Program-made: the position numbers and the translations under genes
Shown: positions 4,679 to 29,788 of the stretch, piece after piece
Layout: every line of letters begins with the position of its first letter
How positions within the stretch are numbered: position 1 is the stretch's first letter
Notes under the pieces: model-generated
What the model saw: the letters and a program-made list of their open reading frames with translations, nothing else
What the model was told of the DNA's origin: nothing
Databases searched by the model: none
Assembly (NCBI RefSeq): GCF_014084125.1
Contig: NZ_CP048405.1
Location: 5,084,001 to 5,148,000 of the forward strand
Origin: Streptacidiphilus sp. PB12-B1b
GTDB taxonomy: Bacteria; Actinomycetota; Actinomycetes; Streptomycetales; Streptomycetaceae
Direction of reading: 5' to 3'
Length of the DNA stretch: 64,000 nucleotides

Positions 4679-4732
4679 GCGGCCTGCAGCACCCCCAAAA
4701 CCAATGAGGCGATCAAAGAGCAAGCATTTACC

Positions 4733-4761
4733 TTGTGCACGAGGCAATCGTGTCATAGTCT
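4733..4761 (+). promoter_or_regulatory. Candidate promoter with small inverted repeat upstream of the hydrolase pair
   Basis: A TTGTGC hexamer (4733-4738) and TAGTCT (4756-4761) are separated by 17 bp. They lie in a locally AT-richer stretch (from about 4700) between the PucR gene and the hydrolase at 4855. The spacer contains CACGA-N5-TCGTG, which would suit a dimeric regulator. Assigned by eye only. Confidence 0.35.
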
Positions 4762-4854
4762 TCTCATGTCGGCAGGGAACGCGGCCCGCAAGCCGCCCCC
4801 ACCGACCGCATCACCCGCACCAGTTGCAGCACCACACCCGTTGAGGAGAAGGCC

Positions 4855-5820
4855 ATGACCGACACCACCCCCGTCACGCCCGTGCTGGAGACCGCCGCGG
4901 CCGAGTTCGCCGCCGCCACCGCCAACCCGCCCTTCCTGTTCGACCTCGGCCCGGAGGAAGGTCGCAAGGCCGTGGACGCGGTGCAGTCCGGCGACACCGT
5001 CAAGCTGGAGGTGGACGAGGAGTGGATCACCGTCGCCGCTCCGACCGGCCCGGTCCGGGCCCGGATCGTCCGCCCGAAGAACGCCACCGGCGTGCTGCCG
5101 GTGATCGTCTACATCCACGGCGCAGGCTGGGTCTTCGGCAACGCCCACACCCACGACCGGCTGGTCCGGGAGCTGGCGGTGCGGGCGGGCGCGGCGGTGG
5201 TCTTCCCCGAGTACGCCCTCTCCCCCGAGGCCCGCTACCCGGTCGCCATCGAGCAGAACTACGCCGTCGCCCGCTGGGTCGTCACCGACGGCGCGGCGCA
5301 CCGGCTGGACGCCGCCCGGATCGCCGTGGCCGGTGACTCGGTCGGCGGCAACATGGCCGCCGCGCTCACCCTGATGGCCAAGGAGCGCGGCAACCTGCCC
5401 CTGGTCCAGCAGGTGCTGTTCTACCCGGTCACCGACGCCGGCTTCGACACCGGCTCCTACCACCAGTTCGCCACCGGCTACTTCCTGCGCCGCGACGGCA
5501 TGCAGTGGTTCTGGGACCAGTACACCACCGATGAAGCCGAGCGCGCCCAGATCACCGCCTCCCCGCTGCGCGCCACCACCGAACAGCTCACCGGCCTGCC
5601 CCAGGCCCTGGTCATCACCGCCGAGGCCGACGTGCTGCGCGACGAGGGCGAGGCGTACGCCAACAAGCTGCGCCAGGCCGGGGTACCGGTCACCGCCACC
5701 CGGTACCAGGGCATCATCCACGACTTCGTGATGGTCGACGCCCTGCGCGGTACCCACGCCGCCGAGGCGGCCATCAACCAGGCCGTCTCGGCGCTCCGCA
5801 CCGCCTTCGGCGCGGCCTGA
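4855..5820 (+). CDS. Alpha/beta hydrolase of the hormone-sensitive-lipase (HSL) type, cytoplasmic
   Basis: 321 residues with HSL-family hallmarks. HGAGW at 88-92 replaces the usual HGGGW oxyanion motif, and the nucleophile elbow GDSVGG carries Ser162. A likely acid is Asp259 in EADVLRDEGE and the base is His289 in IIHDFVM. These enzymes hydrolyse short-chain acyl esters. No signal peptide is visible. The start ATG at 4855 has GAGGAGAAGG just upstream. It is followed after 98 bp by a close paralogue with a secretion signal, so the two look like a tandem duplication whose products were sent to different compartments. Substrate unknown. Confidence 0.88.
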   Translation: MTDTTPVTPVLETAAAEFAAATANPPFLFDLGPEEGRKAVDAVQSGDTVKLEVDEEWITVAAPTGPVRARIVRPKNATGVLPVIVYIHGAGWVFGNAHTHDRLVRELAVRAGAAVVFPEYALSPEARYPVAIEQNYAVARWVVTDGAAHRLDAARIAVAGDSVGGNMAAALTLMAKERGNLPLVQQVLFYPVTDAGFDTGSYHQFATGYFLRRDGMQWFWDQYTTDEAERAQITASPLRATTEQLTGLPQALVITAEADVLRDEGEAYANKLRQAGVPVTATRYQGIIHDFVMVDALRGTHAAEAAINQAVSALRTAFGAA

Positions 5821-7101: not shown

Positions 7102-8334
7102 TCAACTCCCGGTGCCCGTCTGCCAGAGCGTGGTGCCGCCGTCCACGATCATGACGTTGCCGTCCGCCGCCAGCACCAGTTGCGCGCTGTCGTGGCCGGG
7201 GGTGTTGGATGCCCAGGCGGTGCCGTTGCTGCTGGTGTAGACGACGATGTTGCCGTCGTTCTGGAAGTACGCCAGCGCGCCCGATCCCGCCGTGCCGGAC
7301 TGCCAGCGGATGCGCCCGGTCTGGTCCTCGACCACCAGATTGCCGCTGGACAGCAGAGTCACGGTCACCCGGCCGTTGCTGACCCCGGCCCCACCGCGCT
7401 GGAAGGTGATCAGCGACGAGAAGGTCCGGGTCTGGTAGACCACGGTCGGCGTGGGCCGTGGGGTCGGACGCCTGGTCGTCCCGGCGGCGGGGTTGCTCCG
7501 GGGGGTGGCCGGCGGCGCGGCCGCACCCGCGCCCGCGCCCTGGCCCGCCGGAGCAGCCGTGGACCCGGCAGCTGCGGCAGTCGGGGAGCCGGGCCCGGGC
7601 GTCCCGGGCTTCGCCGTAGTGGTGGAACGGGCGCTGGTGGACGGCGCCGTCGGCGGCGCCATCGACACCGACACCACGGCGGTCGGCTGCGCGCTCGCGG
7701 ACGGCTGGGCCGCGGCGGACACCGGCGCGCCGGTCGCCGCCGCGATTTGTATCGAGGAGGGCGCCTGGTGCCGGTTGTCCGGGCCCAGGCACACCCCCAC
7801 CACAACCGAACCCAGCACCGCGAGCACCGACAACCCCGCAACCGTCACCGCCCGCCGTGAGCGGCCGTCCTCACGCAACACCGGCCCCTCCCACGGAACC
7901 GGCCGCCCAGACGCCGGCGCCCACCGCACCAACGGCCGCCCGCCCGAGCCGGAGGCGAGCCGCGCGGGCTCGGACCGCACGGGCTCCGGCTGCACGGGCT
8001 CCGGCTGCGCGGGCTCGGGTCGCGCCTGCCGGGGCGGTTGCGCGGGCGCGGGCTGTGCGGGTCGGGAGGGCGCGGCGGGCTCCGGCTTCGCGGCCTGCCC
8101 GGGTTCGGAGGGCGCGGCGGACTCCCGCTTCGCGGGCTGCTGCCCGGTCCCGGCGGGCTGCACCGGCGCCTCGGGCTGCCGCCGGGGCGCGGGCTGCTCG
8201 GCCTCGGCCGGGGCGGTGGTCGGCGCCGGGGCGGGCTGCGGCTGCCAGGGCAGGGGCCGGTCCCAAATGGCCGAGGTGTCGCCGTCCTTGTCCGGTGACA
8301 CCGCCCGGCCCTGCTCTCCCGGGTTCTCCAGCAT
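7102..8334 (-). CDS. Membrane-anchored protein with C-terminal bulb-type (mannose-binding-like) lectin domain
   Basis: 410 residues in three parts. A long Pro/Ala/Glu-rich cytoplasmic stretch (1-160) contains PEPVQPEPVRSEP-like repeats. One transmembrane helix lies at about 162-184 (VAGLSVLAVLGSVVVGVCLG). A low-complexity Ser/Thr/Pro linker then leads to a B-lectin domain over roughly the last 100 residues (TLLSSGNLVVED, YFQNDGNIVVYTS, LVLAADGNVMIVDGG, the repeated DGN-type sugar-site pattern). The predicted topology puts the lectin outside the cell. It is next to the eCIS island and its large LuxR regulator, so a link to surface attachment is possible, but no direct evidence exists. The C-terminal fold is the reliable part. 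Confidence 0.8.
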   Translation of the reverse strand: MLENPGEQGRAVSPDKDGDTSAIWDRPLPWQPQPAPAPTTAPAEAEQPAPRRQPEAPVQPAGTGQQPAKRESAAPSEPGQAAKPEPAAPSRPAQPAPAQPPRQARPEPAQPEPVQPEPVRSEPARLASGSGGRPLVRWAPASGRPVPWEGPVLREDGRSRRAVTVAGLSVLAVLGSVVVGVCLGPDNRHQAPSSIQIAAATGAPVSAAAQPSASAQPTAVVSVSMAPPTAPSTSARSTTTAKPGTPGPGSPTAAAAGSTAAPAGQGAGAGAAAPPATPRSNPAAGTTRRPTPRPTPTVVYQTRTFSSLITFQRGGAGVSNGRVTVTLLSSGNLVVEDQTGRIRWQSGTAGSGALAYFQNDGNIVVYTSSNGTAWASNTPGHDSAQLVLAADGNVMIVDGGTTLWQTGTGS

Positions 8335-10582: not shown

Positions 10583-10976
10583 GTCAGGTGCAACCTGCCT
10601 CTTCGCTCACCGTGGTCTGCTCGCATGTGGTGCTGCCGATTGTGCCGCATGGGGCGTGGCGGCGCTCCCGGCTGCGGAAAGAACATCGGGGCAGGCCAGG
10701 AGCACCGTGGGGCTCGGTGCGGGCACGGTGCGGGTTCCGGGGCCGCTCAGCGGCTGCTCGGGGACGTGCTCGGGGGTGCCGGTTGTGGCTGCGTGATCGC
10801 GCATCAGACACTGCCCGCCGCCCTGCCACGGCGTGCACGTGGAGCGGGGGCGGCGCGGTCGAGACTGGTCGTCGTCGGCCCTGTGGCCACTACGCGATCC
10901 CCCTGCGCGGTTCGCGCCCTCGGCCGACACCTCAGGGTCGGTTTCCCGTCGGTTTCGAAGGAGGGGCAGAGGGCCA
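10583..10976. promoter_or_regulatory. Divergent intergenic region between LuxR regulator and eCIS sheath operon
   Basis: A 394-bp gap with no convincing gene. Next to the LuxR start it carries a small inverted repeat, CAGGT-GCA-ACCTG (10585-10597), a possible autoregulatory site. The right end has GAAGGAGG as the sheath ribosome-binding site (about 10957-10964). No sigma-70-like promoter is obvious by eye; the eCIS promoter should lie here because all 15 downstream genes are packed head to tail. Confidence 0.5.
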
Positions 10977-12587
10977 GTGCCTACGTACCATTCCCCCGGA
11001 GTCTATGTAGAAGAGGTCTCCTCGGGCTCCCGGCCCATCGAGGGCGTGGGCACCGCGGTGTGCGCCTTCGTCGGGTTCACCGAGCGCGGAGTCTCCAACC
11101 AGCCCACGCTGGTGACCAATTGGACGCAGTACACCAAGGCGTTCGGCGGTTTCGTCGACGGTGCGCACCTGCCGCAGTCGGTGTACGGCTACTTCCTCAA
11201 CGGCGGCGGCGCCGCCTATGTGGTGCGCGTCGGCGCGCCGGAACCGCTCGACGCCTCCGCGGCGGGCGGCGGCACGCACGACCGTGCGGACGGGGGCACG
11301 GACGCCCTCGGCTCGGCCGCGGGGGGCGAACTGCCCGCAGCGGGCGGCGGCGGCCGTCCGGCCCTGCGGGCCCGGGCGTTGGAGCCCGGAGCGGCGGGCA
11401 ACGAACTGAGCGTCGAGGTCACCGAGGCGGGCGAGCCGGGCGAGGAGTTGTTCCGGCTGGTCGTCAGGCAGGGCGATCGTGAGGTGGAAGCCTTCGACAA
11501 CCTGTCGCTGCGGCGCGGCCCCCGGTACGCCGCCACCGTAGTCAAGGAGTCCTCGCAACTCATCGCGCTGGACGAGATCAAGGGCGCGCAGACGCTGGTG
11601 CCGGCCAAGGGCGCACGGGTCGTGCTGAGCGGCGGCGCGTCCTCGTCGACGGTGGTGGCCCCGGCGCCGGCCCCGGCGCCGATCACCCCGGCCGACTACG
11701 TCGGGGACACCGCCGACCGCACCGGTTTCGCCGGTCTGGAGGCGATCGAGAACGTGACCATGCTCTGCGTGCCCGATCTGATGGCCGCCTACCAGCGCGG
11801 GGCGGTGGACCTCGACGGGGTCAAGGCCGTGCAACTCGCCATGATCGCGCACTGCGAGCTGATGGCGGACCGGGTGGCGATCCTGGACGCCCCGCCCGGT
11901 CTCGGCGCCCAGCAGGTCCGCGACTGGCGCATGGACGTCGCCGGCTACGACTCCAAGTACGCGGCGCTGTACTGGCCTTGGATCAAGGTCATGGATCCCG
12001 TGCAGGGCAGGCCGGCGCTGGTGCCGCCGAGCGGCTACATCGCCGGGGTGTGGGCGCGCAGCGACGAGACCCGCGGCGTGCACAAGGCCCCGGCCAACGA
12101 GGTGGTCCGGGGCGTGATCGATCTGGAGACCACCCTCACCCGGGGCGAGCACGACCAGCTCAACCCGGTGGCCGTCAACTGCATCCGGGCCTTCCCCGGC
12201 CAGGGCATCCGGGTGTGGGGCGCGCGGACGCTCTCCAGCGATCCCGAGTGGCGCTACCTGAACGTGCGCAGGCTGTTCAACTTCGTGGAGAAGTCCATCC
12301 TCGACGGCACCAACTGGGTGGTGTTCGAGCCCAACGACCGCTTTCTGTGGGGTGCGGTGCGCCGCACCATCACCATGTTCCTGCGCCGGGTTTGGCGCAG
12401 CGGGGCGCTGTTCGGCCGTACCCCGGAGGAGGCGTTCTTCGTCAAGTGCGACGAGGAGAACAACCCTCCGGAGGACCGGGACGCGGGCATCCTCACCGTC
12501 GACATCGGCATCGCCCCGGTCAAGCCGGCGGAGTTCATCGTCTTCCGGGTCTCGCAGTACTCGCAGGGCGCGGCGCTGGACGAGTGA
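10977..12587 (+). CDS. eCIS contractile sheath protein (phage tail sheath family)
   Basis: 536 residues from a GTG at 10977, chosen because GAAGGAGG lies about 10 bp upstream and the protein then begins PTYHSPGVYVEEVSSGSRPI, the classic sheath N-terminus. The C-terminal half has the conserved sheath region (WPWIKVMDPVQGRPALVPPS, SGYIAGVWARSDETRGVHKA, NPVAVNCIRAFPGQGIRVWG). Sheath subunits polymerise around the tube and contract to drive it. An internal insert rich in Gly/Ala (residues about 85-140) is probably surface-exposed on the particle. It is the first gene of the main operon and its stop overlaps the tube start (TGATG). Only one sheath gene is present, in contrast to the several sheath genes of Afp/PVC clusters. 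Confidence 0.95.
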   Translation: MPTYHSPGVYVEEVSSGSRPIEGVGTAVCAFVGFTERGVSNQPTLVTNWTQYTKAFGGFVDGAHLPQSVYGYFLNGGGAAYVVRVGAPEPLDASAAGGGTHDRADGGTDALGSAAGGELPAAGGGGRPALRARALEPGAAGNELSVEVTEAGEPGEELFRLVVRQGDREVEAFDNLSLRRGPRYAATVVKESSQLIALDEIKGAQTLVPAKGARVVLSGGASSSTVVAPAPAPAPITPADYVGDTADRTGFAGLEAIENVTMLCVPDLMAAYQRGAVDLDGVKAVQLAMIAHCELMADRVAILDAPPGLGAQQVRDWRMDVAGYDSKYAALYWPWIKVMDPVQGRPALVPPSGYIAGVWARSDETRGVHKAPANEVVRGVIDLETTLTRGEHDQLNPVAVNCIRAFPGQGIRVWGARTLSSDPEWRYLNVRRLFNFVEKSILDGTNWVVFEPNDRFLWGAVRRTITMFLRRVWRSGALFGRTPEEAFFVKCDEENNPPEDRDAGILTVDIGIAPVKPAEFIVFRVSQYSQGAALDE

Positions 12588-13108
12588 TGTCGAGTCCGAG
12601 CTTCCCCAACGCAACCACCGCGCAGCCGTTCTCCACCGTGGCGTCCGCGCCGATCTTCGTGGTCTCCTCGAACATCCAGATCACCGGCGGTTACCAGCTG
12701 CAGAACATCGCCTTCCAGGAACTCGCCGGCATCAACAGCGAGATCAACATCGAGCAGTACGTGTCGGTGGACGCGGCCGGATTCGTCAACCACACCAAGC
12801 AGTTCGGCCTGACCAGGCCGCCGACGGTGACGCTCAAGCGCGGCCTGGACAACAGCCTGACGCTGTGGGCGTGGCACCAGATGGCCCTCGGCGGCGATCC
12901 CGGCGCCCGCGCCCAGTACCTGAGCCTGGACATCTTCGGCGGCGGGCGCGGCAGCATCCAGCACCAGCAACCGTTGATGAGCTACACGCTCATCAACGCC
13001 TGGTGCGCAAAGATCAACATCTCCTCGGCCAGGGCCGGTGAGGGAGTGGTCACCGAGGACGTCACCATCGCCTGCGACATGATCACCCAGGGTGACGGCG
13101 GCGGCTGA
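12587..13108 (+). CDS. eCIS inner tube protein 1 (gp19/Hcp-like)
   Basis: 173 residues. The ATG at 12587 overlaps the sheath TGA, implying translational coupling. The T4 gp19-type tail tube core is visible: QNIAFQELAGINSEINIEQY, FGLTRPPTVTLKRGLDNSLT and the C-terminal TEDVTIACDMI strand. It is clearly homologous to the next protein (13207-13674), which shares the KxPPTVTLKRGLD signature. One of the two is expected to form the bulk tube and the other a tube-initiator or minor ring, as with Afp1/Afp5. A long spacer with 15-bp repeats follows. Confidence 0.92.
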   Translation: MSSPSFPNATTAQPFSTVASAPIFVVSSNIQITGGYQLQNIAFQELAGINSEINIEQYVSVDAAGFVNHTKQFGLTRPPTVTLKRGLDNSLTLWAWHQMALGGDPGARAQYLSLDIFGGGRGSIQHQQPLMSYTLINAWCAKINISSARAGEGVVTEDVTIACDMITQGDGGG

Positions 13109-13141
13109 CGCGGCGGCGCTCGTGCGGCGCGAACGACATTG

Positions 13142-13178
13142 CAGGGCACGGCAGTTCAGGGCACGTCAGTTCAGGGCA
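13142..13178 (+). repeat. 15-bp direct repeat array in tube 1 / tube 2 spacer
   Basis: Two adjacent 15-mers differing at one base (CAGGGCACGGCAGTT and CAGGGCACGTCAGTT) are followed by a partial third (CAGGGCA). They lie in the 98-bp spacer between the two tube genes, upstream of the second gene's GAGAGGGG ribosome-binding site. Confidence 0.75.
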
Positions 13179-13206
13179 ATCCGAGTGGAGAGGGGTGGCA
13201 GGCCAG

Positions 13207-13674
13207 ATGGCGGTCGCCAGCGGCAACCCGACGGTGATGAGCGCGTCGACCTTCGTGATCCAGGTGGACGGGATCCAGGTCGCCACGTTCAGCGAACTGT
13301 CCGGGATCAACACCGAGGTCGAATCGGTGGAGTACATCTCCACCGGCCCCGGGGGAATCGTGCACACCAAGCAGTACGGCAAGACCAAACCGCCGACGGT
13401 CACGCTCAAGCGCGGCCTCGACACGCAGACGTACATGTGGTCCTGGCACCAGGCCGTGCTCCAGGGCGAGCCCACGGCCCGCAAGACCTGCTCACTGCAG
13501 CTGTTCGCGGCCTCGCAGTCGCCGAGGTCGGGGCAGCCGATCATCACCTACATCCTGGAGAACGCCTGGCCGTCGCGGCTGGAGATCGGCGGGATGAAGG
13601 CCGGCGCGACCGAAGTGGTGACCGAGACCGTGGTGCTGCACTGCGACCAGATCCTGATGCAGCCGGCCGGATGA
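13207..13674 (+). CDS. eCIS inner tube protein 2 (gp19/Hcp-like)
   Basis: 155 residues from the ATG at 13207. A GTG at 13195 is in frame, but the GAGAGGGG ribosome-binding site lies too close to it. The protein has the tube fold pattern: MSASTFVIQVDGIQVATFSE, LSGINTEVESVEYISTGPGG, KTKPPTVTLKRGLDTQTY and TEVVTETVVLHCDQI. Its length matches the 145-160 residues usual for eCIS and phage tube subunits better than tube 1 does, so this may be the main tube subunit. Located between tube 1 and the assembly-chaperone-like gene. Confidence 0.92.
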   Translation: MAVASGNPTVMSASTFVIQVDGIQVATFSELSGINTEVESVEYISTGPGGIVHTKQYGKTKPPTVTLKRGLDTQTYMWSWHQAVLQGEPTARKTCSLQLFAASQSPRSGQPIITYILENAWPSRLEIGGMKAGATEVVTETVVLHCDQILMQPAG

Positions 13675-13711
13675 CGAACCGGACGACGCCCCGGCTGAGC
13701 AAGGAGACCCC

Positions 13712-14137
13712 ATGCTGACGCACCCGTCCGCCGCCGACATCGACGGCGCGCCGCCCGGCTCGTCCGGGATGGTGACCCGCTACCCGTTCGTGCTGCCCAG
13801 GGGCTATCTGGACGATCAGGGCCGGGTGCACCGGGAGGGAGTGATGCGCCTGGCCACGGCGCGCGACGAGATCGCCAGCCAGAGCGATCCACGGGTCAGG
13901 CAGAATCCGGCCTACCTCAGCGTGCTGCTGCTGGCCCGGACGGTGACCAGGATCGGCTCCGCGCCGGGCGTGGACCACCTGGTGATCGAGGGCCTGTTCG
14001 CCTCGGATCTCGCATTCCTGCAGGACCTCTACCGGCGGATCAACCAGGACGGCCATACCGAGGCGGACGTCGCCTGCCCGGCGTGCGGACACGGATTCGC
14101 GGTGGACATCGCCGGTGATGCCCCGGGGGAATCCTGA
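13712..14137 (+). CDS. Phage tail assembly chaperone-like protein
   Basis: 141 residues. AAGGAG is well placed before the ATG. The sequence MVTRYPFVLPRGYLDDQGRV, LATARDEIASQSDPRVRQNP, VLLLARTVTRIGSAPGVDHL and FASDLAFLQDLYRRIN matches small proteins seen immediately after tube genes in actinobacterial eCIS loci and resembles tail assembly chaperones of myophages. It ends with a CPACGH motif, half of a possible metal-binding site. Its likely job is keeping tube or tape components competent for assembly. The stop overlaps the next small gene. Function is inferred from position and family resemblance. Confidence 0.75.
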   Translation: MLTHPSAADIDGAPPGSSGMVTRYPFVLPRGYLDDQGRVHREGVMRLATARDEIASQSDPRVRQNPAYLSVLLLARTVTRIGSAPGVDHLVIEGLFASDLAFLQDLYRRINQDGHTEADVACPACGHGFAVDIAGDAPGES

Positions 14138-14322
14138 CGTACACGGCCGACCGCCTCTGGGAGGAGGCCGTGTACCTCGCGTACTACCTGCACTGGCCGC
14201 TACGGGAGATCCTCGACCTCGAACATCCGGACCGAGCACGGGTGATCGAGGAGATCGGCCGCATCCACGGCCGCCTCGACAGCGGCGCGGCAGAACCCGC
14301 CTTCCAGCCCTGGCCCCCGTGA
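14134..14322 (+). CDS. DUF6760-like small eCIS protein, probable CTG start
   Basis: 62 residues: TYTADRLWEEAVYLAYYLHW, then PLREILDLEHPDRARVIEEI and GRIHGRL. This matches the short DUF6760-type proteins encoded between the tail chaperone and core genes of many eCIS loci. In this frame there is a TGA at 14119 and no ATG, GTG or TTG until a GTG in mid-domain (14170). The best start is CTG at 14134, overlapping the previous stop as CTGA, with GGGGGA 5-8 bp upstream. This gene would be missed by ATG/GTG/TTG-only gene calling. Its exact role in the particle is unknown. Confidence 0.7.
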   Translation: MTYTADRLWEEAVYLAYYLHWPLREILDLEHPDRARVIEEIGRIHGRLDSGAAEPAFQPWPP

Positions 14323-14353
14323 GCGGCGGCCCCCTGAACGGAGAGGAGACGAG

Positions 14354-16558
14354 ATGCGTTGGCTGCCCCGGCGTCGCCACCGCGAGACCCGCGACGCCCG
14401 GCCCGACCTGGGCCTGCCGCCTGGCCCCGCGCCCTGGCGACGGCTGCCGCCGCTCGCCCCGACCGTCCAGCGGCCCCCGCTCACCGCGGCCGCCTCGATG
14501 GGCGTCTTCGCCGCCGAGCGCGTCCGCCCGCTGATCCACCCGCCGGAGCGCGCCCGCCGGGCGCCACGCCCCGCGGTAAGCCCCGCGGTAAGCCCCGCGG
14601 TAAGCCCCGCAGTAGGCCCCGCGGTCCGTCAGGGCACTGACGATACCGGCGGGACGGCCGTGGAGCCGCTCACCGGCCGCGTGACGGGGCTGGTCGCGGT
14701 CCGTACCGAAGCGGCCCCGCAGCCGGTGCGGCCGTCGGAGCCGCGGCCGGTCGCGCCACCCCTGGGCCGGGCCCGCACGCGTCGGCAGGAGCCGGTACCG
14801 GACCGCCCCGCGATGCCCGCGACACCGCCTGCCGCGCCACGGCTCGCCCCGCGCGTGCTGGACGCCCCCGGGCCCCGGCCGAGCCTGCTCCAGGCCACCG
14901 ACGCGTACCTGGGCGACCCGCTGCCCGAACCCGCGCCGGCCGCGCCCGCCACCGCCGCAGCCCCCGCCCCCGCTCCGGACTCGGACTGGCTGCGCATGAT
15001 CGAGTCCTACCGTCCGCCGTGGGCATCGGCAGCCTCCGCGCCCGTGCCGCGGGCAGGCGGGCTGCCGATACCCGAGGCCGGTGCCTCCTGGTCCAGCGAG
15101 GCGGTGGCCGCACCGCCGCCCCTGCCCGCAGCCGAAGCGCGCCCCGAGGCGCCGAGGCCGACGCGCCGGGCCTCCCTGGCCGAAAGCCGACGGCTCGGCC
15201 TCGGCACTCCCCTGCGGCGGCCCACGCCGCCCGACGCCGGGCCCGCGCAGGCGGACCCGCCCAGGCCCCCTTCACCCGAAGCTGAAGCTGAAGCGAGCAC
15301 GGACGCAGACGCAGACGCAGACGCAGACAGGCCACCGCACCAGCCGCCCGCCCCGGAAGCGCCCGGGCTGGGCCTCGCCGACCCGATCGACCGGCCGCCC
15401 GTGCGCCCGTCCACCGGCGCGCCGCCCGCCCCCCGGTCGGCGCGTCGACGCACGCCGCCCGCACCGGCGGAGCCGGAACCCGTTCCCCCGGTCCCGGCCG
15501 CCGAGCCGGACGCCCCCACCGAGCCGTCTGCATCCACCGAGGCCGCCGTATGCCCGGCCGCGCCGCTCCCGGCCGTCCCCGTCTACCGCTTCGCACCCGG
15601 CACCCGCACCCGCACTTCCCCCCTCCGGTTGCGGCCCCGGCCGCAGAACGCCCGCGTCGAGCCCGGTCAGGCACCAACCACCGCGCCCCCAGGGCCCGTC
15701 CAGACACCCCCGACGGAACTCGCCGACGCCGTACGCCAGGTGCACCACGTGGACGTCTCCGATGTGCCGATCCATCGCGATCCCGAGGCGGCGGCCGAGG
15801 CGCAGGCGCTCGGCGCCCGCGCCTTCACCCGGGACGGCGAGGTCTTCCTGCCCGCCGCCGAGGGGCCGCTCGACCACCCCGTCGCCCGTGGCCTGCTCGC
15901 GCACGAACTCACCCACGCCGCCCAGCAGCGGACCTTCGGCGCGGCCCTCCCCCGTGAGGACTCCGACGCCGGCATCGCCCTGGAGGCCGTGGCGGTAACA
16001 GCCGAGCGCCGGGTCCGGGGCCTGGCCGCACCCCTGACGGCCGAGAGTTCCCCACCCCGCATCCCCCACACCGCGCCGGGCACCGCCGCGGAGGCCGCTC
16101 CCGAACCCGCATCGTGGTCCGCACCGTGGCCCGCGCCCGGGCGACCTGCCGCGCCGACGGGCGGGGTGCAGCGGCAGACCGGCGACGTGGCGGCCATGCC
16201 CGCGCCCGCGTATCCGCCGCCGCAGCCGGCAGCGCCACCCCTGCCCCCGGCCGCGCCCCCCACCGCATTCGTACCGGTCACGGCGCAGCCCCCGCCCCCG
16301 TCGGCCCAGGCGCCGGAACCGCCGCCCCCGGACACTCCGTCCCCCGCGCCCTTGGAGGCCGAACTGCTCCCGCTCCGGGACAGGCTCGTCGAGCTGTGCG
16401 CCCGGCGTCCGCTCGATCTGGACGACCCCAACGACATCGAGGAACTGGCCGTCCGGGTCTACCAGCGGATCCACGGACGGCTGCGGCGTGAGCTGCTGGT
16501 CGACCGCGAGCGCGCCGGACGGCTCGGCGAGACCGGGCCCTTCGGCTGGGCGAGATAG
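14354..16558 (+). CDS. DUF4157 'eCIS core' metalloprotease-like protein with long disordered N-terminus
   Basis: 734 residues; GGAGAGGAG precedes the ATG. About 440 N-terminal residues are Pro/Ala/Arg-rich and low in complexity, with PAVS repeats and DA and EA dipeptide runs, and are likely disordered. The DUF4157 domain follows at about 455-525 (QVHHVDVSDVPIHRDPEAAA and LLAHELTHAAQQR), with a zinc-protease HELTH at 517-521. Another Pro-rich stretch leads to a short helical C-terminus (LDDPNDIEELAVRVYQRIHG). DUF4157 proteins are markers of eCIS loci and often accompany or form part of cargo, but their role is unsettled. Such disordered extensions could act as loading signals; that is inference. 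Confidence 0.85.
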   Translation: MRWLPRRRHRETRDARPDLGLPPGPAPWRRLPPLAPTVQRPPLTAAASMGVFAAERVRPLIHPPERARRAPRPAVSPAVSPAVSPAVGPAVRQGTDDTGGTAVEPLTGRVTGLVAVRTEAAPQPVRPSEPRPVAPPLGRARTRRQEPVPDRPAMPATPPAAPRLAPRVLDAPGPRPSLLQATDAYLGDPLPEPAPAAPATAAAPAPAPDSDWLRMIESYRPPWASAASAPVPRAGGLPIPEAGASWSSEAVAAPPPLPAAEARPEAPRPTRRASLAESRRLGLGTPLRRPTPPDAGPAQADPPRPPSPEAEAEASTDADADADADRPPHQPPAPEAPGLGLADPIDRPPVRPSTGAPPAPRSARRRTPPAPAEPEPVPPVPAAEPDAPTEPSASTEAAVCPAAPLPAVPVYRFAPGTRTRTSPLRLRPRPQNARVEPGQAPTTAPPGPVQTPPTELADAVRQVHHVDVSDVPIHRDPEAAAEAQALGARAFTRDGEVFLPAAEGPLDHPVARGLLAHELTHAAQQRTFGAALPREDSDAGIALEAVAVTAERRVRGLAAPLTAESSPPRIPHTAPGTAAEAAPEPASWSAPWPAPGRPAAPTGGVQRQTGDVAAMPAPAYPPPQPAAPPLPPAAPPTAFVPVTAQPPPPSAQAPEPPPPDTPSPAPLEAELLPLRDRLVELCARRPLDLDDPNDIEELAVRVYQRIHGRLRRELLVDRERAGRLGETGPFGWAR
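14569..14628 (+). repeat. 12-bp tandem repeat encoding PAVS units
   Basis: Three exact copies of CCCCGCGGTAAG are followed by CCCCGCAGTAGG and CCCCGCGGTCCG, all in the frame of the DUF4157 gene (PAVS-PAVS-PAVS-PAVG-PAV). A 12-bp unit lets copy number change without breaking the frame. Confidence 0.85.
15279..15328 (+). repeat. Hexanucleotide microsatellites in the DUF4157 gene
   Basis: A (GAAGCT)-type run encoding EAEAEA is followed by (GACGCA) repeated four times encoding DADADADA. Both are in frame inside the disordered N-terminal region. Unit length of six preserves the frame on slippage. Confidence 0.8.
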
Positions 16559-16584
16559 CGAGAGAGACGGGAATCGAGGGAACC

Positions 16585-17118
16585 ATGAGCATGGCACGAT
16601 CGCTGCTCGGCGCGTCCGAGCAGGCCCAGAACCTGGCCGGGCCGCTGTCGGTGGGCATGAGCCACCGGTACGCGGTACTGATCGACAACGTCGCGTACCA
16701 CTTCGGCGACTGGTCCCGGGTGACCGGCCTGTCGGTGTCCTGGCAGCAGGTGGAGCACCGGGTCGGGGACCGCGGCAACCAGGTGTGGCTCTTCCCCGGC
16801 GCGACCCGGTACGAGCCGATCACGCTGAGCCGGGCGGCCGGGCCGTACTCGCGGGTGGTGCAGCACTGGCTGACGCAGACGTCCAAGAACCCGCAGCCGC
16901 AGAGCGGCACGATCCAACTGGTGGACTTCGCCGGGATCGCGATGGTCCAGTGGCGGCTCAGCGAGTTCTTCCCGATCGCCTGGTCCGTGGAGTCCTTCGA
17001 CGCGGCCGGAGGCAAGCCCGCGATCGAGACGCTCCGGCTGGCCCACACCGGCTTCCTCGAAGACGACCTCAACTCCTCGGCGACGTCTCCGACTTCACCG
17101 ATGATCTCCCCGTTCTGA
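16585..17118 (+). CDS. eCIS tail protein, gp19-like (baseplate/tube-adaptor) A
   Basis: 177 residues. Conserved tail-protein pattern: SHRYAVLIDNVAYHFGDWSR, VTGLSVSWQQVEHRVGDRGN, PGATRYEPITLSRAAGPYSR and IETLRLAHTGF. This is the T4 gp19-like fold used for Afp5-type tube-initiator or hub-adaptor subunits. It differs from the two tube proteins and pairs with the next gene, which has the same layout. The last 15 residues (SSATSPTSPMISPF) are a Ser/Pro-rich tail. ATG preceded by GAGGGAA. The two genes lie between the core protein and the LysM adaptor, as in other eCIS clusters. Confidence 0.8.
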   Translation: MSMARSLLGASEQAQNLAGPLSVGMSHRYAVLIDNVAYHFGDWSRVTGLSVSWQQVEHRVGDRGNQVWLFPGATRYEPITLSRAAGPYSRVVQHWLTQTSKNPQPQSGTIQLVDFAGIAMVQWRLSEFFPIAWSVESFDAAGGKPAIETLRLAHTGFLEDDLNSSATSPTSPMISPF

Positions 17119-17131
17119 CAGTCAGAAAGGC

Positions 17132-17755
17132 ATGGCGTCCGTGAGCATCTCGTCCTTCGCCCCGGCAGGCGGGCAGGGTGGCGGCCAACTCGGCCTCGCC
17201 CTCGCACCGCTCGGCGGCACGGCCGCGTCCACCGCGGTGTCGGCGGCGCGCGCGTCGGCCGCCGACTCCGCCTTCCGCTACTTCGGCCTGTCCATGCGCT
17301 TCACCGTCAGATTCTCCAGCAACGGCGGCATCGACTGGCTCGGCGAATGGTCCTCCTGCAAGGGGCTGCGGGTGGATTTCCGGACCGAAGCGGTGCGGAT
17401 CGGCGGCGAATACGGCAACGAGGTGAAGCTGCCGGTGCAGGTGGCGTACGCGCCGATCGTTCTGGAGCGGGCGATGGAGCGGCAGAGTTCGCAGGCGCTG
17501 CAGGCGTGGCTGGGCAAGCTGGTCACCACCTGGATGCACTCCGACGACGCCGGCGCCCGGCCCCCGGAAGGCACGGTGGACATTGAGCTCCAGGACGTGC
17601 ACCAGAACGTCGTCGCCGGGTGGAGCCTGCGCAACGCCTACCCGGTCGCGTGGAGCGGGCCGGTCATGGACGCCAAGCAGAACGCGGTGGCCATCGAGAC
17701 ATTGACCCTCGAACACGAGGGCTTCCTGCCGGGACCGGCCGCCGCAGGCGTGTAG
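17132..17755 (+). CDS. eCIS tail protein, gp19-like (baseplate/tube-adaptor) B
   Basis: 207 residues starting 14 bp after the previous stop. An Ala/Gly-rich N-terminal extension of about 45 residues precedes the fold core: MRFTVRFSSNGGIDWLGEWS, SCKGLRVDFRTEAVRIGGEY, VQVAYAPIVLERAMERQSSQ and IETLTLEHEGFLPG. The closing IETL-L-HEGF motif is shared with protein A, so these are diverged paralogues. Their likely place is the ring connecting tube and spike hub. The gene is followed by the second 15-bp repeat array. Confidence 0.8.
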   Translation: MASVSISSFAPAGGQGGGQLGLALAPLGGTAASTAVSAARASAADSAFRYFGLSMRFTVRFSSNGGIDWLGEWSSCKGLRVDFRTEAVRIGGEYGNEVKLPVQVAYAPIVLERAMERQSSQALQAWLGKLVTTWMHSDDAGARPPEGTVDIELQDVHQNVVAGWSLRNAYPVAWSGPVMDAKQNAVAIETLTLEHEGFLPGPAAAGV

Positions 17756-20911: not shown

Positions 20912-22915
20912 ATGCCCCTGCCTGTCCCCGATCTCGACGACCGCCGCTTCCAGGACCTGGTGGACGAGGCCAAGCGCCTGGTGATGCGGCGCTGCCCGGA
21001 GTGGACCGACCACAACGTCTCCGACCCGGGCATCACCCTGATCGAGACCTTCGCCCAGATGACCGACCACCTGCTCTACCGGCTCAACCAGGTGCCCGAC
21101 CGGCTGTACGTCACCTTCCTGAACCTGATCGGCCTGCGGATGCTGCCGCCCACCCCGGCGCGCACGCCCGTCACCTTCTGGCTCTCCAGCCCGGCCCGGG
21201 CGCGGCTGACGATCGCCGCCGGCACCCGCGTCGGCACCCTGCGCACGGCCACCGCCGAGTCGATCGTCTTCACCACCCGGGCGGACCTGGCGGTCGTGCC
21301 CTGCTCGCTGGCCGGGATCAGGACCCCCGCCGATCCGGAGCCCGACGCCGGCCCGCCGCCGACGGACGACCCGCGGCCGGAGGACGGCGGCCCGACCGCG
21401 GACCGCTCCCGGCTGCTGGCGGACGGCCGCCCGTTCCCGGCGTTCCGGCAGCGCCCCGGCATCGGCGACGCGCTGCTGGTCGGCCTCTCCGAACCGGTCC
21501 CCGGGTGCGTGGTCCGGCTCGGCTTCCGCGGCCGGGTGGAGGGCGTCGGGGTCAACCCCAAGCACCCGCCGCTGACCTGGGAGGCGTGGACCGGCGACGG
21601 CTGGGCCGCGTGCGAGCCGGGGCTGGACGAGACCGGGGGCCTGAACACCTCCGGCGCGATCGTGCTGCACATCCCGGCCGGGCACCGGGCGAGCGTGGTC
21701 GACGGCGACCGGGCCGGCTGGATCAGGGCCCGGGTGGTCGAGCCCGAGGAGGGTCAACCCCCTTACCGGGACTCGCCGGTGGTCGACGGACTGACCGTGT
21801 GCACGGTCGGCGGCACGGTCGAGGCGGTGCACGCCGAGCCGGTCGGGCTGGAGCAGCTGGGGCAGGCCGAGGGCGTGCCCGGCCAGCAGCTCCCGCTCCG
21901 GCACAGCCCGGTCCTGGCCGGCTACGGCCCGCCGGTGGTGGAGACCAGCTCGCCGGAGGGCTGGCTGGAGTGGACCGAGGTCGAGAACTTCGCCGACAGC
22001 GGCCCGCAGGACCGGCACTTCGCGCTGGACGCCGTCTCCGGGCTGGTGCTGTTCGGCCCTGCCGTCCGCGAGGCCGACGGCAGCCTGCGCCACTACGGCG
22101 CGGTGCCCGAGAAGGGCGCCGAGGTGCGCATCCGCGGCTACGCCACCGGCGGCGGCGCGCGCGGGAACGTCGCGGCCGGATCGGTCTGCCGGCTGAAGTC
22201 CTCGATCCCGTCGGTCTCCGCCGTGGAGAACCGGCGCCCGGCCCAGGGCGGGGTGGACGGCGAGACCCTGGACGAGGCCAAGGACCGCGGGCCGCTGCTG
22301 GTGCGCACCCGCAGCCGCGCCGTGACCGCCGAGGACTACGAGATCCTGGCCCGCGAGGCGGCGCCGGAGATCGCCCGGGTGCGCTGCGTGCCCACCGGCC
22401 GCGACCCGGCCGAGGCCGGGGGCGTGCGGGTGCTGGTCGTCCCGGCCGCCGCCGCGCCCGACGGCCGGATCCTGTTCGAGAACCTCGTCCCGCCGGAGCC
22501 GACGCTGAGCCGGATCGCCGCCCGGCTCGATCGCGCGCGGGTGGTGGGCACCCGCGTCGTGCTGGAGCCGCCGCTCTACCGCGGCGTCACCGTGGTCGCC
22601 CGGCTGGTGGCCCGGCCGCGGGTGAACGTCGAGCGGGTCCGCGAGGACGCGCTCGACATCCTCTACCGCTACCTCAGCCCGCTGCCCGGCGGCGGCCCCG
22701 AGGGCGCGGGCTGGCCCTTCGGCCGCCCGGTCCAGGCGGGCGAGATCTTTGGCCGGATGCAGCAGCTGCACGGCGTCGAACTGGTCGAGGACGTCCGGCT
22801 GTTCTCCGCCGACCCGGTCTCCGGCGTGCGCGGCAAGGAGGTCCGCCGGATCGATCTGGACCCGAACAGCCTGGTGTACTCGTACGAGCACCAGGTCAGG
22901 GTGGAGGCCCACTGA
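20912..22915 (+). CDS. eCIS baseplate J-like protein (gp6/Afp11 type)
   Basis: 667 residues. The N-terminus (FQDLVDEAKRLVMRRCPEWT, DHNVSDPGITLIETFAQMTD, LLYRLNQVPDRLYVTFLNLI) and the central SRAVTAEDYEILAREAAPEI typify putative baseplate assembly protein J. The C-terminus keeps the wedge dimerisation pattern (EPPLYRGVTVVARLVARPRV and LYRYLSPLPGGGPEG). It forms the iris of the baseplate. Length is close to the family norm. ATG follows the gp25 stop without a gap, and its own TGA overlaps the next ATG (TGATG). Confidence 0.93.
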   Translation: MPLPVPDLDDRRFQDLVDEAKRLVMRRCPEWTDHNVSDPGITLIETFAQMTDHLLYRLNQVPDRLYVTFLNLIGLRMLPPTPARTPVTFWLSSPARARLTIAAGTRVGTLRTATAESIVFTTRADLAVVPCSLAGIRTPADPEPDAGPPPTDDPRPEDGGPTADRSRLLADGRPFPAFRQRPGIGDALLVGLSEPVPGCVVRLGFRGRVEGVGVNPKHPPLTWEAWTGDGWAACEPGLDETGGLNTSGAIVLHIPAGHRASVVDGDRAGWIRARVVEPEEGQPPYRDSPVVDGLTVCTVGGTVEAVHAEPVGLEQLGQAEGVPGQQLPLRHSPVLAGYGPPVVETSSPEGWLEWTEVENFADSGPQDRHFALDAVSGLVLFGPAVREADGSLRHYGAVPEKGAEVRIRGYATGGGARGNVAAGSVCRLKSSIPSVSAVENRRPAQGGVDGETLDEAKDRGPLLVRTRSRAVTAEDYEILAREAAPEIARVRCVPTGRDPAEAGGVRVLVVPAAAAPDGRILFENLVPPEPTLSRIAARLDRARVVGTRVVLEPPLYRGVTVVARLVARPRVNVERVREDALDILYRYLSPLPGGGPEGAGWPFGRPVQAGEIFGRMQQLHGVELVEDVRLFSADPVSGVRGKEVRRIDLDPNSLVYSYEHQVRVEAH

Positions 22916-23454
22916 TGCGGCGAGCCGTGGCGGGGCTGGACACCCCGTACCCGATCGGCAGCCTGCTGCCCGCGGTCTTCCAGGAGGACCCGGGGGCCAT
23001 GCGCTGGACCGGTGCCCTGGACGAGGTGCTCGCCCCGGCCATCTCCACCCTGGACTGCCTGGCCGCCTACACCGATCCCATGCTCGCGCCCGACGACTTC
23101 GTCCGCTGGCTCGCGGGCTGGCTGGGCACGGTCCTGGACGAGAACTGGCCGCTGGAGCGGCAGCGGGCGGCGGTGGCGCACTCCGTGCCGCTCTACCGGC
23201 TGCGCGGCACCGCCGAGGGGCTGCGCATCCTGATCGAGCTGGTCACCGGCGGGGAGGTGGACCTCGCCGAGAGCGGCGGCGTCCGCTGGTCGGCCGCCCC
23301 GAACACCCCGCTGCCGGGCGAGCCGGTGGCCCGGCTGGCCGTCCGGGTGACGCTGCCCAAGGGGGCGTCCGTGGACGTCGCGGCACTGGAGGAACTGATC
23401 GTCGCGGAGAAACCCGCGCACGTACCGCACGGGTTGGAGGTCGTGGAGAGATGA
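22915..23454 (+). CDS. eCIS tail protein I-like baseplate subunit
   Basis: 179 residues: LLPAVFQEDPGAMRWTGALD, APAISTLDCLAAYTDPMLAP, FVRWLAGWLGTVLDENWPLE, RQRAAVAHSVPLYRLRGTAE and GLRILIELVTG. This is the P2 gpI-like family, the wedge partner of baseplate J. Start overlaps baseplate J's stop and its stop overlaps the next ATG (ATGA), giving continuous coupling. In phages this subunit connects to fibres. No fibre gene follows here, which fits the cytoplasmic behaviour reported for Streptomyces contractile systems. Confidence 0.88.
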   Translation: MRRAVAGLDTPYPIGSLLPAVFQEDPGAMRWTGALDEVLAPAISTLDCLAAYTDPMLAPDDFVRWLAGWLGTVLDENWPLERQRAAVAHSVPLYRLRGTAEGLRILIELVTGGEVDLAESGGVRWSAAPNTPLPGEPVARLAVRVTLPKGASVDVAALEELIVAEKPAHVPHGLEVVER

Positions 23455-25114
23455 TCGTGTGTCGCACGTGCGGATTCCGCAACCGGGTGGAGGACGCGTT
23501 CTGCGGCTCCTGCGGGGGCTTCCTCGAATGGACCGGGGAGAAGCAGGCCCCGAAGATCGCGCAGGCCGTGGTCCAGGAGATCGAGCTACGGCAGGAGCAG
23601 GCGGCTGCCGAGCCGCGGCCCGGCCTGCTGCAGCGCGTCATCCAGGGCACGAACACCTTCATCGCCGGGCCGAGGCCGGAGCCCGCGGAGGCGGACGAGG
23701 CCGCCGGAGGGGGCAGCAGGCCCCGCCCGCCGGGTCCCGACGGGGCGCCGCAGCGCCGCCCCCGCCTCCCGCTCCGCCGCGCCCGGGAGCCGGCGCACCC
23801 CCACCCCCTCCCGCTCCGCCGAAACCCAAGCCCAGCGCAGCCACCCCTGCCCCGCCACCACCACCCACAGCCCGACGCACCACACCCGCACCGCCGCCAC
23901 CACCGCCACCACCGCCACCACCGCCACCGCCACCGACCCGGAGCGCGGCCACGCCGCCACCGCCACCACCACAGCCCTCGGCCCGGAGCGCGGCCACGCC
24001 ACCGCCGCCACCGGCACGACGGAGCACCGCCACGCCACCGCCACCCCCACCGCCCGCAGCGCGGAGCGCAGCCACACCGCCGCCGCTGCCACCAACCCCA
24101 CTGACGGCCACTCAGAAAAGCTCAGCAGCCCTGGTGGCGCCCGTCGAGCCCGCCGGCCCCGCGTCCGACACCGTGCCGGAGCCGTCGACGCAACCGTTGC
24201 CGCCGGAGGCGGCTGCGGCGGTGGAGGACATCCGCGAGCAGGCGCCGCGGTCGGCGCGGGCCAAGGCGGTCGCGGTGACCAGGACCGCGCCGAGCCATCG
24301 GCTCCAACCGGGCGATCTGGTGTGCGGGGCCTGCGGCGAGGGCAATCCGGGCACCCGACGGTTCTGCAGTCGGTGCGGTGCCTCACTCGTCGAGGCGGTG
24401 CAGGTCAGGGAGGCGTGGTGGCGGCGGTTCCTGCCCCGGCGCGGGCCACGGGTGGTCGCGCTCGATCCGGGTACGGGCAGCGGCGCTGCGCGCGGCTCGT
24501 CCGCCGCACGGCTGGCCGAGCCCCGCTTCGACCTGAAGTTCGTGCTCCGGCAGACCTACCGCAAGGTCCGCGTCGTCGGCGCGGTGGCGCTCCTGTGCGC
24601 CGGCACGCTGTACGGCGTGTACCCGCCGTTCCGCAACACGGTCGACGGCCGGGCGCGGAACCTCAAGGCGCAGGTCACCGACACCATCGGCGACCACCTC
24701 TCGCCCGTCCACGCCGTCAGCGTGACGGCCAACGTCTCGGAGCGCGGCTACCCCGCACTGAACGCGGCGGACGAACTGCTCAACACGTACTGGCTGGCGC
24801 CCTGGTCGACGTCGTCGGAGCCCACGCTCACGTTCGACTTCGCCCACCGCGTGACCCTGCGGAAGGTCATCCTGCATCTGGGCGCGAGCAACGCCTACAT
24901 CCAGGACGGCAGGCCCAGCGAGCTGCGGCTGACGTACTCCAACGGTGAGTCGTTCACGATCATCCCGCAGGACACCTCGCAGGCGCAGACGTTCACCATA
25001 AGCCATGCGGATCTCATCACCAGCATGCGGGTCGAGGTCGGCGCGGTGTATCCGGGCGGCAGCGGGTCAACCGTCGCCACCGCCGAGATCGAGCTGTTCG
25101 GCTTCACAACGTGA
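23451..25114 (+). CDS. Zinc-ribbon / transmembrane / discoidin-like eCIS protein (CisA-like), frame-disrupted in a G run
   Basis: The protein starts MIVCRTCGF with a zinc ribbon (C4, C7, C18, C21). After about 85 codons the frame must shift by -1 at or near the five-G run 23709-23713. It then runs through a long polyproline tract, a second zinc ribbon (CGACGEGNPGTRRFCSRCG, from 24322), a basic stretch, one membrane helix (VVGAVALLCAGTLYGVYPPF, about 24575-24630) and a C-terminal discoidin/F5-8C-like domain (ELLNTYWLAPWSTSSEPTLT; VTLRKVILHLGASNAYIQDG). Topology puts the zinc ribbons inside and the beta-domain outside. By position and layout it resembles CisA, the membrane protein reported to link Streptomyces contractile particles to the membrane; this is my inference. 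Total length if joined is about 554 residues. Confidence 0.75.
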
Positions 25115-25127
25115 CCGGGGAGGACGC

Positions 25128-25562
25128 GTGGCAGACTTCGTCATCAGGGCCGGGGACCTGCTGGAGGTGACCGTCCCGGTGCCCGCGGTGGTGCCCGCAC
25201 TGGAGGCGCCGGTACCGCTGACGGGTTCGAGCACCGACGTGGTGGTCGGCGGCCTCCCGGTCTGCCTGCAGGGCGACGAGCTGCCGATCGTGCTGCGTAC
25301 GCCGCTGGTGTACACGGCACCGCCGTTCACTGTGCCCGGCACGGGAACGCTGGTGCTCACCCTGCTGCCGGGGAACCTGACCCGGCAGACCACCAACGGC
25401 GGCAAGCCGATCCTGCTGGCGGGCGGGTCGTTTCCGGCGGTGTTCACGGTGGAGACGCCGGCCACCATGCCGACGGCGGCCGGCCCGGTGCCGGACCAGG
25501 AGGTGGAGAAGCCGGGCACGGCCCGGTTCATCACCACCAACGTTTCGGTGAAGGCGGGTTGA
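25128..25562 (+). CDS. Small PAAR-like eCIS protein of unknown function
   Basis: 144 residues from a GTG with GGGGAGG 6 bp upstream. It is Val/Pro/Gly-rich and beta in character, with no charged catalytic residues: FVIRAGDLLEVTVPVPAVVP, GSSTDVVVGGLPVCLQGDEL, GTGTLVLTLLPGNLTRQTTN and GGKPILLAGGSFPAVFTV. The VGGxPVCLxGDE block and Gly-rich turns recall PAAR/DUF4280-type spike tips, which fits its place in the baseplate-spike operon, but I cannot prove the family. It is the last gene on the plus strand and ends 10 bp before the convergent DUF4255 gene. Confidence 0.6.
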   Translation: MADFVIRAGDLLEVTVPVPAVVPALEAPVPLTGSSTDVVVGGLPVCLQGDELPIVLRTPLVYTAPPFTVPGTGTLVLTLLPGNLTRQTTNGGKPILLAGGSFPAVFTVETPATMPTAAGPVPDQEVEKPGTARFITTNVSVKAG

Positions 25563-28666: not shown

Positions 28667-29788
28667 TCAGTCCTGGTACGCCTGGACCAGCCGCAGCAGG
28701 TCGCTCAGCTCCTGTTCGCTGAAGTCCTCGGACGCCTGGAGCAGGCTGTCGAACTGCGGCGCCTGGGTGTCGATCATCGTCTGCGCCAGCACCTGGAAGA
28801 ACATCTGCCCGGCGGGGCTCTCCAAGAGGCTCTCGGCCTCCTCGGCGGAGAGGTCGGCGTCCGGTTGGAAGACCCGCTGGTCCAGGCCGCCGGAGACGGC
28901 GTCGAGCAACATGCCGGTCTGCGCGGGCGGTTCGGTCTCGGCGGTCACCGGGCCCTCCTGCGCGAGGAGTTGGTCGTAGTCGTCGTACCAGACGGCCGCG
29001 TCCGGGGAGGCACCGAACACCCAACGGCCGTCCACCAGCTTGATGAAGTGGTCCTCGTAGGGCCGGACGCTCTCCGCCTGCCCACCATCCGCGTCCGCCT
29101 CGTGCCCGGCGGTCACCGGGCCCTCCTGCGCGAGGAGTTGGTCGTAGTCGTCGTACCAGACGGCCGCGTCCGGGGAGGCGCCGAACACCCAACGGCCGTC
29201 CACCAGCTTGATGAAGTGGTCCTCGTAGGGCCGGACGCTCTCCGCCTGCCCACCATCCGCGTCCGCCTCGTGCTGCCGGTACCGGTCCTCGATGGTCTGC
29301 CAGTCGGCGGCGTCCGGGCCGGAGCCGTAGAGCCACTGGAACTCGTCGGAGCCGGGGAGCCTGGCGTACCGGCGGTACTGCGTGCCCTCGACCGGGTCCG
29401 CCGGGTCGTGGTCCGGGTTGGGCTGCGGCCGGGCCTGCTCCTCCTCCGCCCGCCAGCGCTCGACGACCGGGCCGAAGGCGTCCACGAACAGCTCCAGCTC
29501 ACCCTGTCCGGCGTCGTCCCTCAGCGAGGAGACGATCAGCCGCCCGGCCTCCGGGTCCACCCACACGGCCAGGCACTCGGCGACCCAGTCGTCCTCCTGC
29601 TGGAACCAGTCGACCACGTTCTGGAAGACCAGCGGGACCAGTTCCTCGTCGAGCCGGGCCAGGTCCTGGCTCCTGGCGACGTGCGCCAGCCGGGCCGGGC
29701 TGTCCTCCCCCGCCTCCCCGGCCGGGAGCCGCGGCCCGGCCACCAACTCCTTGAGGAGCGGCACGAGCGGAATCAACTGCTGCTTCAT
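28667..29788 (-). CDS. Acidic protein with duplicated 56-residue module, function unknown
   Basis: 373 residues, strongly acidic. The N-terminal domain is helical (QQLIPLVPLLKELVAGPRLP; VFQNVVDWFQQEDDWVAECL; AVWVDPEAGRLIVSSLRDDA). Two nearly identical 56-residue modules follow (VRPYEDHFIKLVDGRWVFGA, SPDAAVWYDDYDQLLAQEGP), preceded by a related diverged stretch (GSDEFQWLYGSGPDAADWQT). A helical acidic C-terminus (LSAEEAESLLESPAGQMFFQ) closes the protein. I recognise no family; the module has some feel of SMI1/KNR4-like immunity folds but this is weak. Lies 57 bp upstream of the 744-residue gene on the same strand, so the pair could be cargo and partner. Confidence 0.6.
   Translation of the reverse strand: MKQQLIPLVPLLKELVAGPRLPAGEAGEDSPARLAHVARSQDLARLDEELVPLVFQNVVDWFQQEDDWVAECLAVWVDPEAGRLIVSSLRDDAGQGELELFVDAFGPVVERWRAEEEQARPQPNPDHDPADPVEGTQYRRYARLPGSDEFQWLYGSGPDAADWQTIEDRYRQHEADADGGQAESVRPYEDHFIKLVDGRWVFGASPDAAVWYDDYDQLLAQEGPVTAGHEADADGGQAESVRPYEDHFIKLVDGRWVFGASPDAAVWYDDYDQLLAQEGPVTAETEPPAQTGMLLDAVSGGLDQRVFQPDADLSAEEAESLLESPAGQMFFQVLAQTMIDTQAPQFDSLLQASEDFSEQELSDLLRLVQAYQD
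28939..29273 (-). repeat. 168-bp tandem duplication inside the acidic gene
   Basis: The segments 28939-29105 and 29107-29273 agree almost perfectly; the one mismatch I noticed is GAGGCACC against GAGGCGCC. The unit is exactly 56 codons. Such identity implies a very recent or gene-converted duplication. Confidence 0.9.

Follow-up and report, generated by a model that had tools for sequence, protein, structure and literature searches.

CisA (SCO4242) has been described as a protein that is encoded just downstream of the baseplate genes of a contractile injection system (CIS) and carries a transmembrane segment and a sugar-binding domain (PMC10066040), with a Cys-rich, possibly zinc-binding stretch ahead of the helix (PMC10020575). 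In S. coelicolor, CisA is reported to be needed for contraction and firing, and less CIS-dependent cell death is seen without it (PMC12237407, eLife 2025). CisA and its role in firing have already been published (PMC12237407; PMC10020575, Nat Commun 2023; PMC10066040, Nat Microbiol 2023). The present analysis adds CisA homologs that have an N-terminal zinc ribbon and a long linker, either proline-rich or acidic; both features may be relevant to the contact between CisA and the particle.

The locus analyzed here lies in a stretch of 64,000 nucleotides, hereafter the window, from the genome of Streptacidiphilus sp. PB12-B1b (7.67 Mb, one contig), whose nearest named relative by cisA is Streptacidiphilus melanogenes (71%). 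The cisA gene of the window is interrupted by a net -1 change of frame. Judged from the deposited letters alone, this is probably an ordinary cisA gene in which the -1 change is a one-base error in the deposited sequence; failing that, the next reading is a strain-level indel.

Domain layout and gene neighborhood of the window cisA

The features of the cluster are as follows.

10833..17755, + strand: further CIS genes, namely sheath (ORF 10833), tube (ORFs 11978, 16585 and 17132) and eCIS_core (ORF 14354), from Pfam
20912..22915, + strand: Baseplate_J baseplate wedge gene (PF04865, E 9e-19)
22912..23454, + strand: Tail_P2_I baseplate wedge gene (PF09684, E 3.7e-13), its stop overlapping the cisA start
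23451..23743, + strand: frame-0 part of cisA with zinc ribbon 1 (residues 4-21) and the start of the linker, from translation and Pfam
23709..23758, + strand: stretch containing the net -1 change, with a G run (23709-23713) at its left end and the model interval at 23744-23758
23759..24322, + strand: proline-rich linker of cisA in the -1 frame, from translation and tandem repeats
24323..24376, + strand: zinc ribbon 2, CxxC...CxxC (Zn_Ribbon_1, E 3.5e-4, below cut-off)
24566..24622, + strand: predicted transmembrane helix (hydropathy peak 1.65; a helix in a low-confidence AlphaFold2 model)
24701..25111, + strand: F5/8 type C / CBM32-like discoidin domain (PF00754, NF047619, Foldseek)
25128..25562, + strand: spike tip gene downstream of cisA (PF19267 CIS_spike_tip, E 3.2e-33)

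Within 23451-25114, a zinc ribbon is encoded in frame 0 and is followed in the -1 frame by the linker, a second ribbon, the helix and the discoidin domain. The ATG of cisA at 23451 overlaps the stop of the upstream Tail_P2_I gene, and past the break the -1 frame continues for about 450 codons up to its stop at 25112-25114. An earlier note on this DNA had proposed that the unshifted frame would yield a short product of about 85 residues plus a tail. The unshifted product would comprise 217 residues and end at 24104, with a longer tail than the note implied.

Zinc ribbon 1 gave matches below cut-off to two Pfam models, DZR (E 0.0018) and Zn_Ribbon_1 (E 0.0054), and its CxxC-CxxC arrangement at residues 4-21 recurs in all ten homologs examined at the N-terminus. 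The four cysteines of zinc ribbon 2 are invariant in 12 of 12 aligned rows. Between the two ribbons, proline makes up 38% of the 201 residues following the break, and the linker holds tandem repeats (eight rows, periods 3 to 78), every period being a multiple of three. The Cys-rich, zinc-binding-like stretch is followed by a single transmembrane segment, predicted by hydropathy only. Beyond the helix, the discoidin domain scored over cut-off with both PF00754 (E 2.5e-7) and NF047619 (E 5.6e-17). AlphaFold2 models, built with three sequences as input, were of modest confidence (mean pLDDT 58.8 and 64.0); the top Foldseek match was the carbohydrate-binding module 7blg (E 4.5e-6), with many discoidin-like folds below it. 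A sequence search against solved structures reached E 0.0099 at best. All of the parts named in the earlier note, that is, two zinc ribbons, a polyproline linker, one transmembrane helix and an outer domain, were thus seen through translations, Pfam and hydropathy.

The position of cisA next to baseplate genes recurs in its relatives. A Tail_P2_I homolog was found in the same stretch as the CisA homolog in 12 of 14 related loci compared, and a spike tip match in 5 of the 14. The two loci lacking Tail_P2_I are L098, whose 17 kb contain no further CIS match, and the S. melanogenes locus (L023), which is cut at a contig end. Gene order varies in L097, where the CIS genes lie on the opposite strand, and in L024, where the Tail_P2_I homolog follows CisA instead of preceding it. 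One Streptacidiphilus genome (G002) contains two CIS baseplate gene sets, each with its own CisA homolog (L107, L108).

Because domain order, gene neighborhood and relatives point the same way, sequence comparison supports the assignment of the window gene as a CisA (SCO4242)-kind protein of a contractile injection system, and the CisA-like label given in the earlier note is borne out. Homology to SCO4242 itself would run through diverged Streptomycetaceae relatives with 30-33% identity over the aligned C-terminal part. The two zinc ribbons, joined by the flexible proline-rich linker, are predicted to form a cytoplasmic N-terminus; a single membrane helix would connect this part to the discoidin domain, which resembles glycan-binding domains and would lie outside. 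From the role of CisA in S. coelicolor, we hypothesize that the protein could serve to dock the baseplate to the cytoplasmic membrane, letting the particle fire.

It should be noted that the window also contains a near-perfect tandem duplication at 28939-29273 (168-base unit, 2.0 copies, 99% match). It is located inside an ORF on the minus strand (28667-29788) for which Pfam returned nothing at E 1, and the frame of this ORF is kept.

Position of the frame change and reading frames of homologs

The frame change was placed with a codon model trained on ten intact linkers (1651 codons), which replaced a genome-wide codon model that had failed on the proline-rich stretch. A -1 switch was preferred over either single frame with log-likelihood gains of 52 and 40, and the 95% interval for the switch was 23744-23758. 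When each of the ten intact linkers was left out of its own model as a control, gains ranged from -25 to +12 for a -1 switch and from -21 to +6 for a +1 switch. The earlier note had put a -1 change at GGAGGGGGC (23706-23714). The -1 switch is therefore favored, but its site is not confirmed: the five-G run at 23709-23713 falls outside the modeled interval, other G/C runs lie between the two, and the codons separating them are plausible in both frames. The automatic frame-switch survey did not flag the -1 change of cisA as such. Switches called in Thr-Pro- or Pro-rich linkers in its first pass (L038, L051 and, in cisA, 23717 and 24126) were taken as false.

Homologs were identified with the C-terminal part of the protein. 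At E 1e-3, matches were found in 7 of 14 genomes of the genus, own genome included; at E 1e-10, 14 of 297 genomes of the family (own genome included), 5 of 70 from the genus to which G208 belongs and 6 of 394 of the class (own genome included) had a match, these sets overlapping. Weak matches in the genus to the discoidin domain only or the zinc ribbon only (E about 1e-3 to 1e-6), including one at another place of the own genome, were not accepted as CisA homologs. This resulted in 19 homologous loci at the E 1e-10 level, L024 among them, with the window gene excluded and L023, which is the same sequence as G007/L010, counted once. All 13 usable loci (L024, L097-L106, L130 and L131) have one open frame, both ribbons and no N. 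Six loci were set aside: L107 and L108 contain N runs, which could stem from gaps in the assembly or from masking; L023, L025 and L035 are cut at contig ends; and in L129 the first ribbon was not seen. The linker is the point where drafts fail, as five of the six set-aside copies have an N run or contig end there. Relatives with an unbroken frame, which the earlier note had named as evidence against its proposal if they were close, were found only at 53% identity and below (L105 and others). Copies at about 70% have linkers cut by N runs or contig ends and, in two cases, -1 changes of their own. In L105, L106 and L035, strongly acidic, Asp/Glu-rich linkers replace the proline-rich linker or are added to it.

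The two further -1 changes, located with the same intact-linker model, are found in the G002 copy L107 at 7367-7384 (gains 36 and 45), about 84-101 bases before the N run, and in S. melanogenes (L023) at 233-263 (gains 91 and 82). For the latter, the distance to the contig end is 233-263 bases, and a partial duplication and an inverted repeat adjoin the change; the repeat arms are CCCTTCGG/CCGAAGGG, and an ALVAPVE segment is repeated there. The changes in the window and in G002 are non-homologous, since the matching GAGAPPPPP-like stretch follows the change in the window but precedes that in G002, and the S. melanogenes change sits near the other end of the linker. G010, of the same genus or type, has an intact frame, and under this model a switch brings no gain in those parts of the L025 (G206, 69% identity) and L108 linkers that can be read. 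In the letters as deposited, -1 changes do recur in three copies, but a region that sequences badly is the more likely cause.

Two related ideas would give this recurrence a biological meaning. The linker of Streptacidiphilus-type cisA may be a hot spot of recurrent -1 switching, through indels or recoding on proline-codon runs, that toggles membrane docking among related strains, the off state leaving a free cytoplasmic zinc-ribbon product; we regard this as very unlikely. Recurrent changes, if real, would point to a self-lethal CIS being switched off at its membrane adaptor. Slightly different is the idea that cisA is turned on and off by slippage in the linker, acting as a contingency tract, for which the tandem repeats of the linker and the -1 changes in three copies (window, one of G002, S. 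melanogenes), those of the window and G002 at different places, could be adduced. All eight repeat rows have periods that are multiples of three, though, which means that slippage by whole units would leave the frame unaltered; two of these three -1 changes lie within about 100-260 bases of an N run or contig end; and neither the intact G010 copy nor the readable L025 (G206) and L108 linkers suggest switching. A contingency tract is accordingly judged highly improbable.

Programmed -1 frameshifting is known in phage tail genes, with slippery heptamers following the rule X XXY YYZ. The earlier note had considered it for cisA, where it would give a soluble zinc-ribbon product next to the full membrane protein. 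The -1 direction would fit, two related linkers have -1 changes as well, and one formal in-frame heptamer, A AAC CCA, exists at 23822-23828 in frame 0. This heptamer lies about 65 bases beyond the modeled interval of 23744-23758 and also beyond a GAGAPPPPP segment that has a G002 counterpart and is already read in the -1 frame, for which reasons it was not taken as a shift site. No other in-frame X XXY YYZ heptamer was found in frame 0 of 23451-23990; 23451-23821 holds none. Folding without pseudoknots did not indicate an unusually stable downstream RNA: the 80 nt after the G run were less stable than their shuffled versions (z +2.33), 199 of 200 of which folded at least as stably, while the RNA at 23660-23791 (z +0.30) and the 80 bases after the modeled break (z +0.49) were average. 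No shift site is conserved among relatives, as the 13 usable homologs are single-frame without exception (six set aside) and need no shift, and the sites in the window and G002 do not correspond. A full-text literature search combining 'programmed frameshift' and 'contractile injection' found no paper, and the word 'frameshift' is absent from the main text of the eLife CisA paper (PMC12237407). With comparable breaks also present elsewhere, as detailed below, the proposal is left unsupported and programmed frameshifting at this locus appears barely credible.

Frame breaks elsewhere and the origin of the cisA change

Frame breaks were surveyed in 864 kb of the own genome, consisting of the window and 40 stretches of 20 kb (746 coding segments). 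The survey returned 15 automatic candidates (11 in 464 kb, 4 in 400 kb), nine of them -1 and six +1. Nine candidates were checked with Pfam, covering eight of the nine -1 and one of the six +1 cases; five of the six unchecked candidates are +1. The excess of -1 among confirmed breaks is in part due to this biased choice. Five unrelated genes are split by a -1 change and carry successive parts of one Pfam model in their two halves; these and the one +1 case are listed with their profile positions on either side of the break.

Squalene-hopene cyclase: -1 break, 135/137
Proline racemase: -1 break, 243/246
DUF5958, in the window at about 63570: -1 break, 1-32 then 36-124, the first half being weak (E 0.0077, below cut-off)
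DUF4331: -1 break, 346/354
MFS: -1 break, 117/135
DUF4158: +1 break, 121/125

In a sixth -1 case the break separates an IucA_IucC domain from an FhuF domain, two domains that are taken to belong together. The candidates in L044 and L122 were unsupported, the upstream half having no family. L044 also includes, at 4041-5621, a periplasmic-binding-protein gene that runs into an apparent ABC ATPase end with several frame switches, possibly a decayed locus.

Two single-contig control genomes, surveyed over 400 kb each, gave 10 and 7 candidates (in total ten -1 and seven +1). Five of these, all -1, were checked. Three have both halves in the same model (integrase 61/93, condensation 214/227, PEP-utilizers_C 243/247), one shows a Tricorn-like domain order and one was unsupported. 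Given the similar candidate numbers in the controls, the own genome is not unusually bad. Breaks of this kind are common in this genome as well as in related ones, and no special cause is therefore needed for the one in cisA, but their commonness does not alone separate sequencing errors from real indels.

Constraint on the gene was estimated as dN/dS, the ratio of computed nonsynonymous to synonymous distances. Compared with G002, the part before the break gave 0.31 and the part after it 0.39, the latter giving 0.34 against S. melanogenes; the neighboring baseplate genes gave 0.27-0.29 against G002. Values against G208 were higher, at 0.79 before and 0.64 after the break. The nearer comparisons (G002, S. 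melanogenes) argue against an old pseudogene.

These results bear on the possibility that the sequenced strain has lost a working cisA through a real and recent single-base indel. Without CisA, a self-firing system that kills the cell would be disarmed, a change that culture could favor, in keeping with the lowered CIS-dependent cell death described for S. coelicolor lacking CisA (PMC12237407), and similar breaks occur in other genes and control genomes as well as in the linkers of two related species. As the frame beyond the break runs on for about 450 codons and appears to be under constraint when compared with the nearest relatives, such an indel would have to be recent. Among the CIS genes of the window, the frame survey detected no further switch whose upstream frame was open for at least 60 bases. 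Overall, an inactivating indel is rather unlikely, though it deserves more weight than the switching and recoding scenarios.

We therefore return to the one-base error as the preferred reading. The error would have been made during base calling or assembly in an extremely GC-rich, repetitive, proline-rich stretch, and the living cell most likely has one open cisA frame. The unbroken frames of the 13 gap-free homologs with both ribbons, the dN/dS values against the nearer relatives, the five other genes split by -1 and the linker as failure point of drafts speak for this explanation; the -1 linker changes in G002 and S. melanogenes, the higher dN/dS against G208, the similar candidate numbers in the controls and the weak first half of DUF5958 speak against it. 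As a caution, a single-base break in a GC-rich repetitive linker should not be read as recoding.

Comparison with described systems

In phage tail assembly, programmed shifts likewise go in the -1 direction, and the window gene resides in a phage-tail-like cluster. The gene concerned is a different one, however, and neither a heptamer at the modeled break nor a stimulatory structure nor a conserved site was detected here.

With respect to its C-terminal domain, the window protein exceeds the cut-off for both PF00754 (CBM32 / F5/8 type C) and NF047619 (NADase-type glycan-binding), and fold searches agree. In contrast to CBM32 / F5/8 type C proteins, the domain is here the outer, putatively glycan-binding domain of a membrane protein inside a CIS cluster. 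For S. coelicolor CisA, the corresponding domain has been likened to solute-binding domains (PMC12237407), as opposed to the F5/8 type C / CBM32-like score obtained here.

The closest described counterpart is S. coelicolor CisA. Both genes are located directly downstream of baseplate wedge genes, and both proteins have a long flexible N-terminus, a Cys-rich, zinc-binding-like stretch preceding a single transmembrane segment, and a sugar-binding-like C-terminal domain of about 150 residues. They differ in that the linker of the window protein is long and very proline-rich, and in that the frame of the window gene is broken as deposited.
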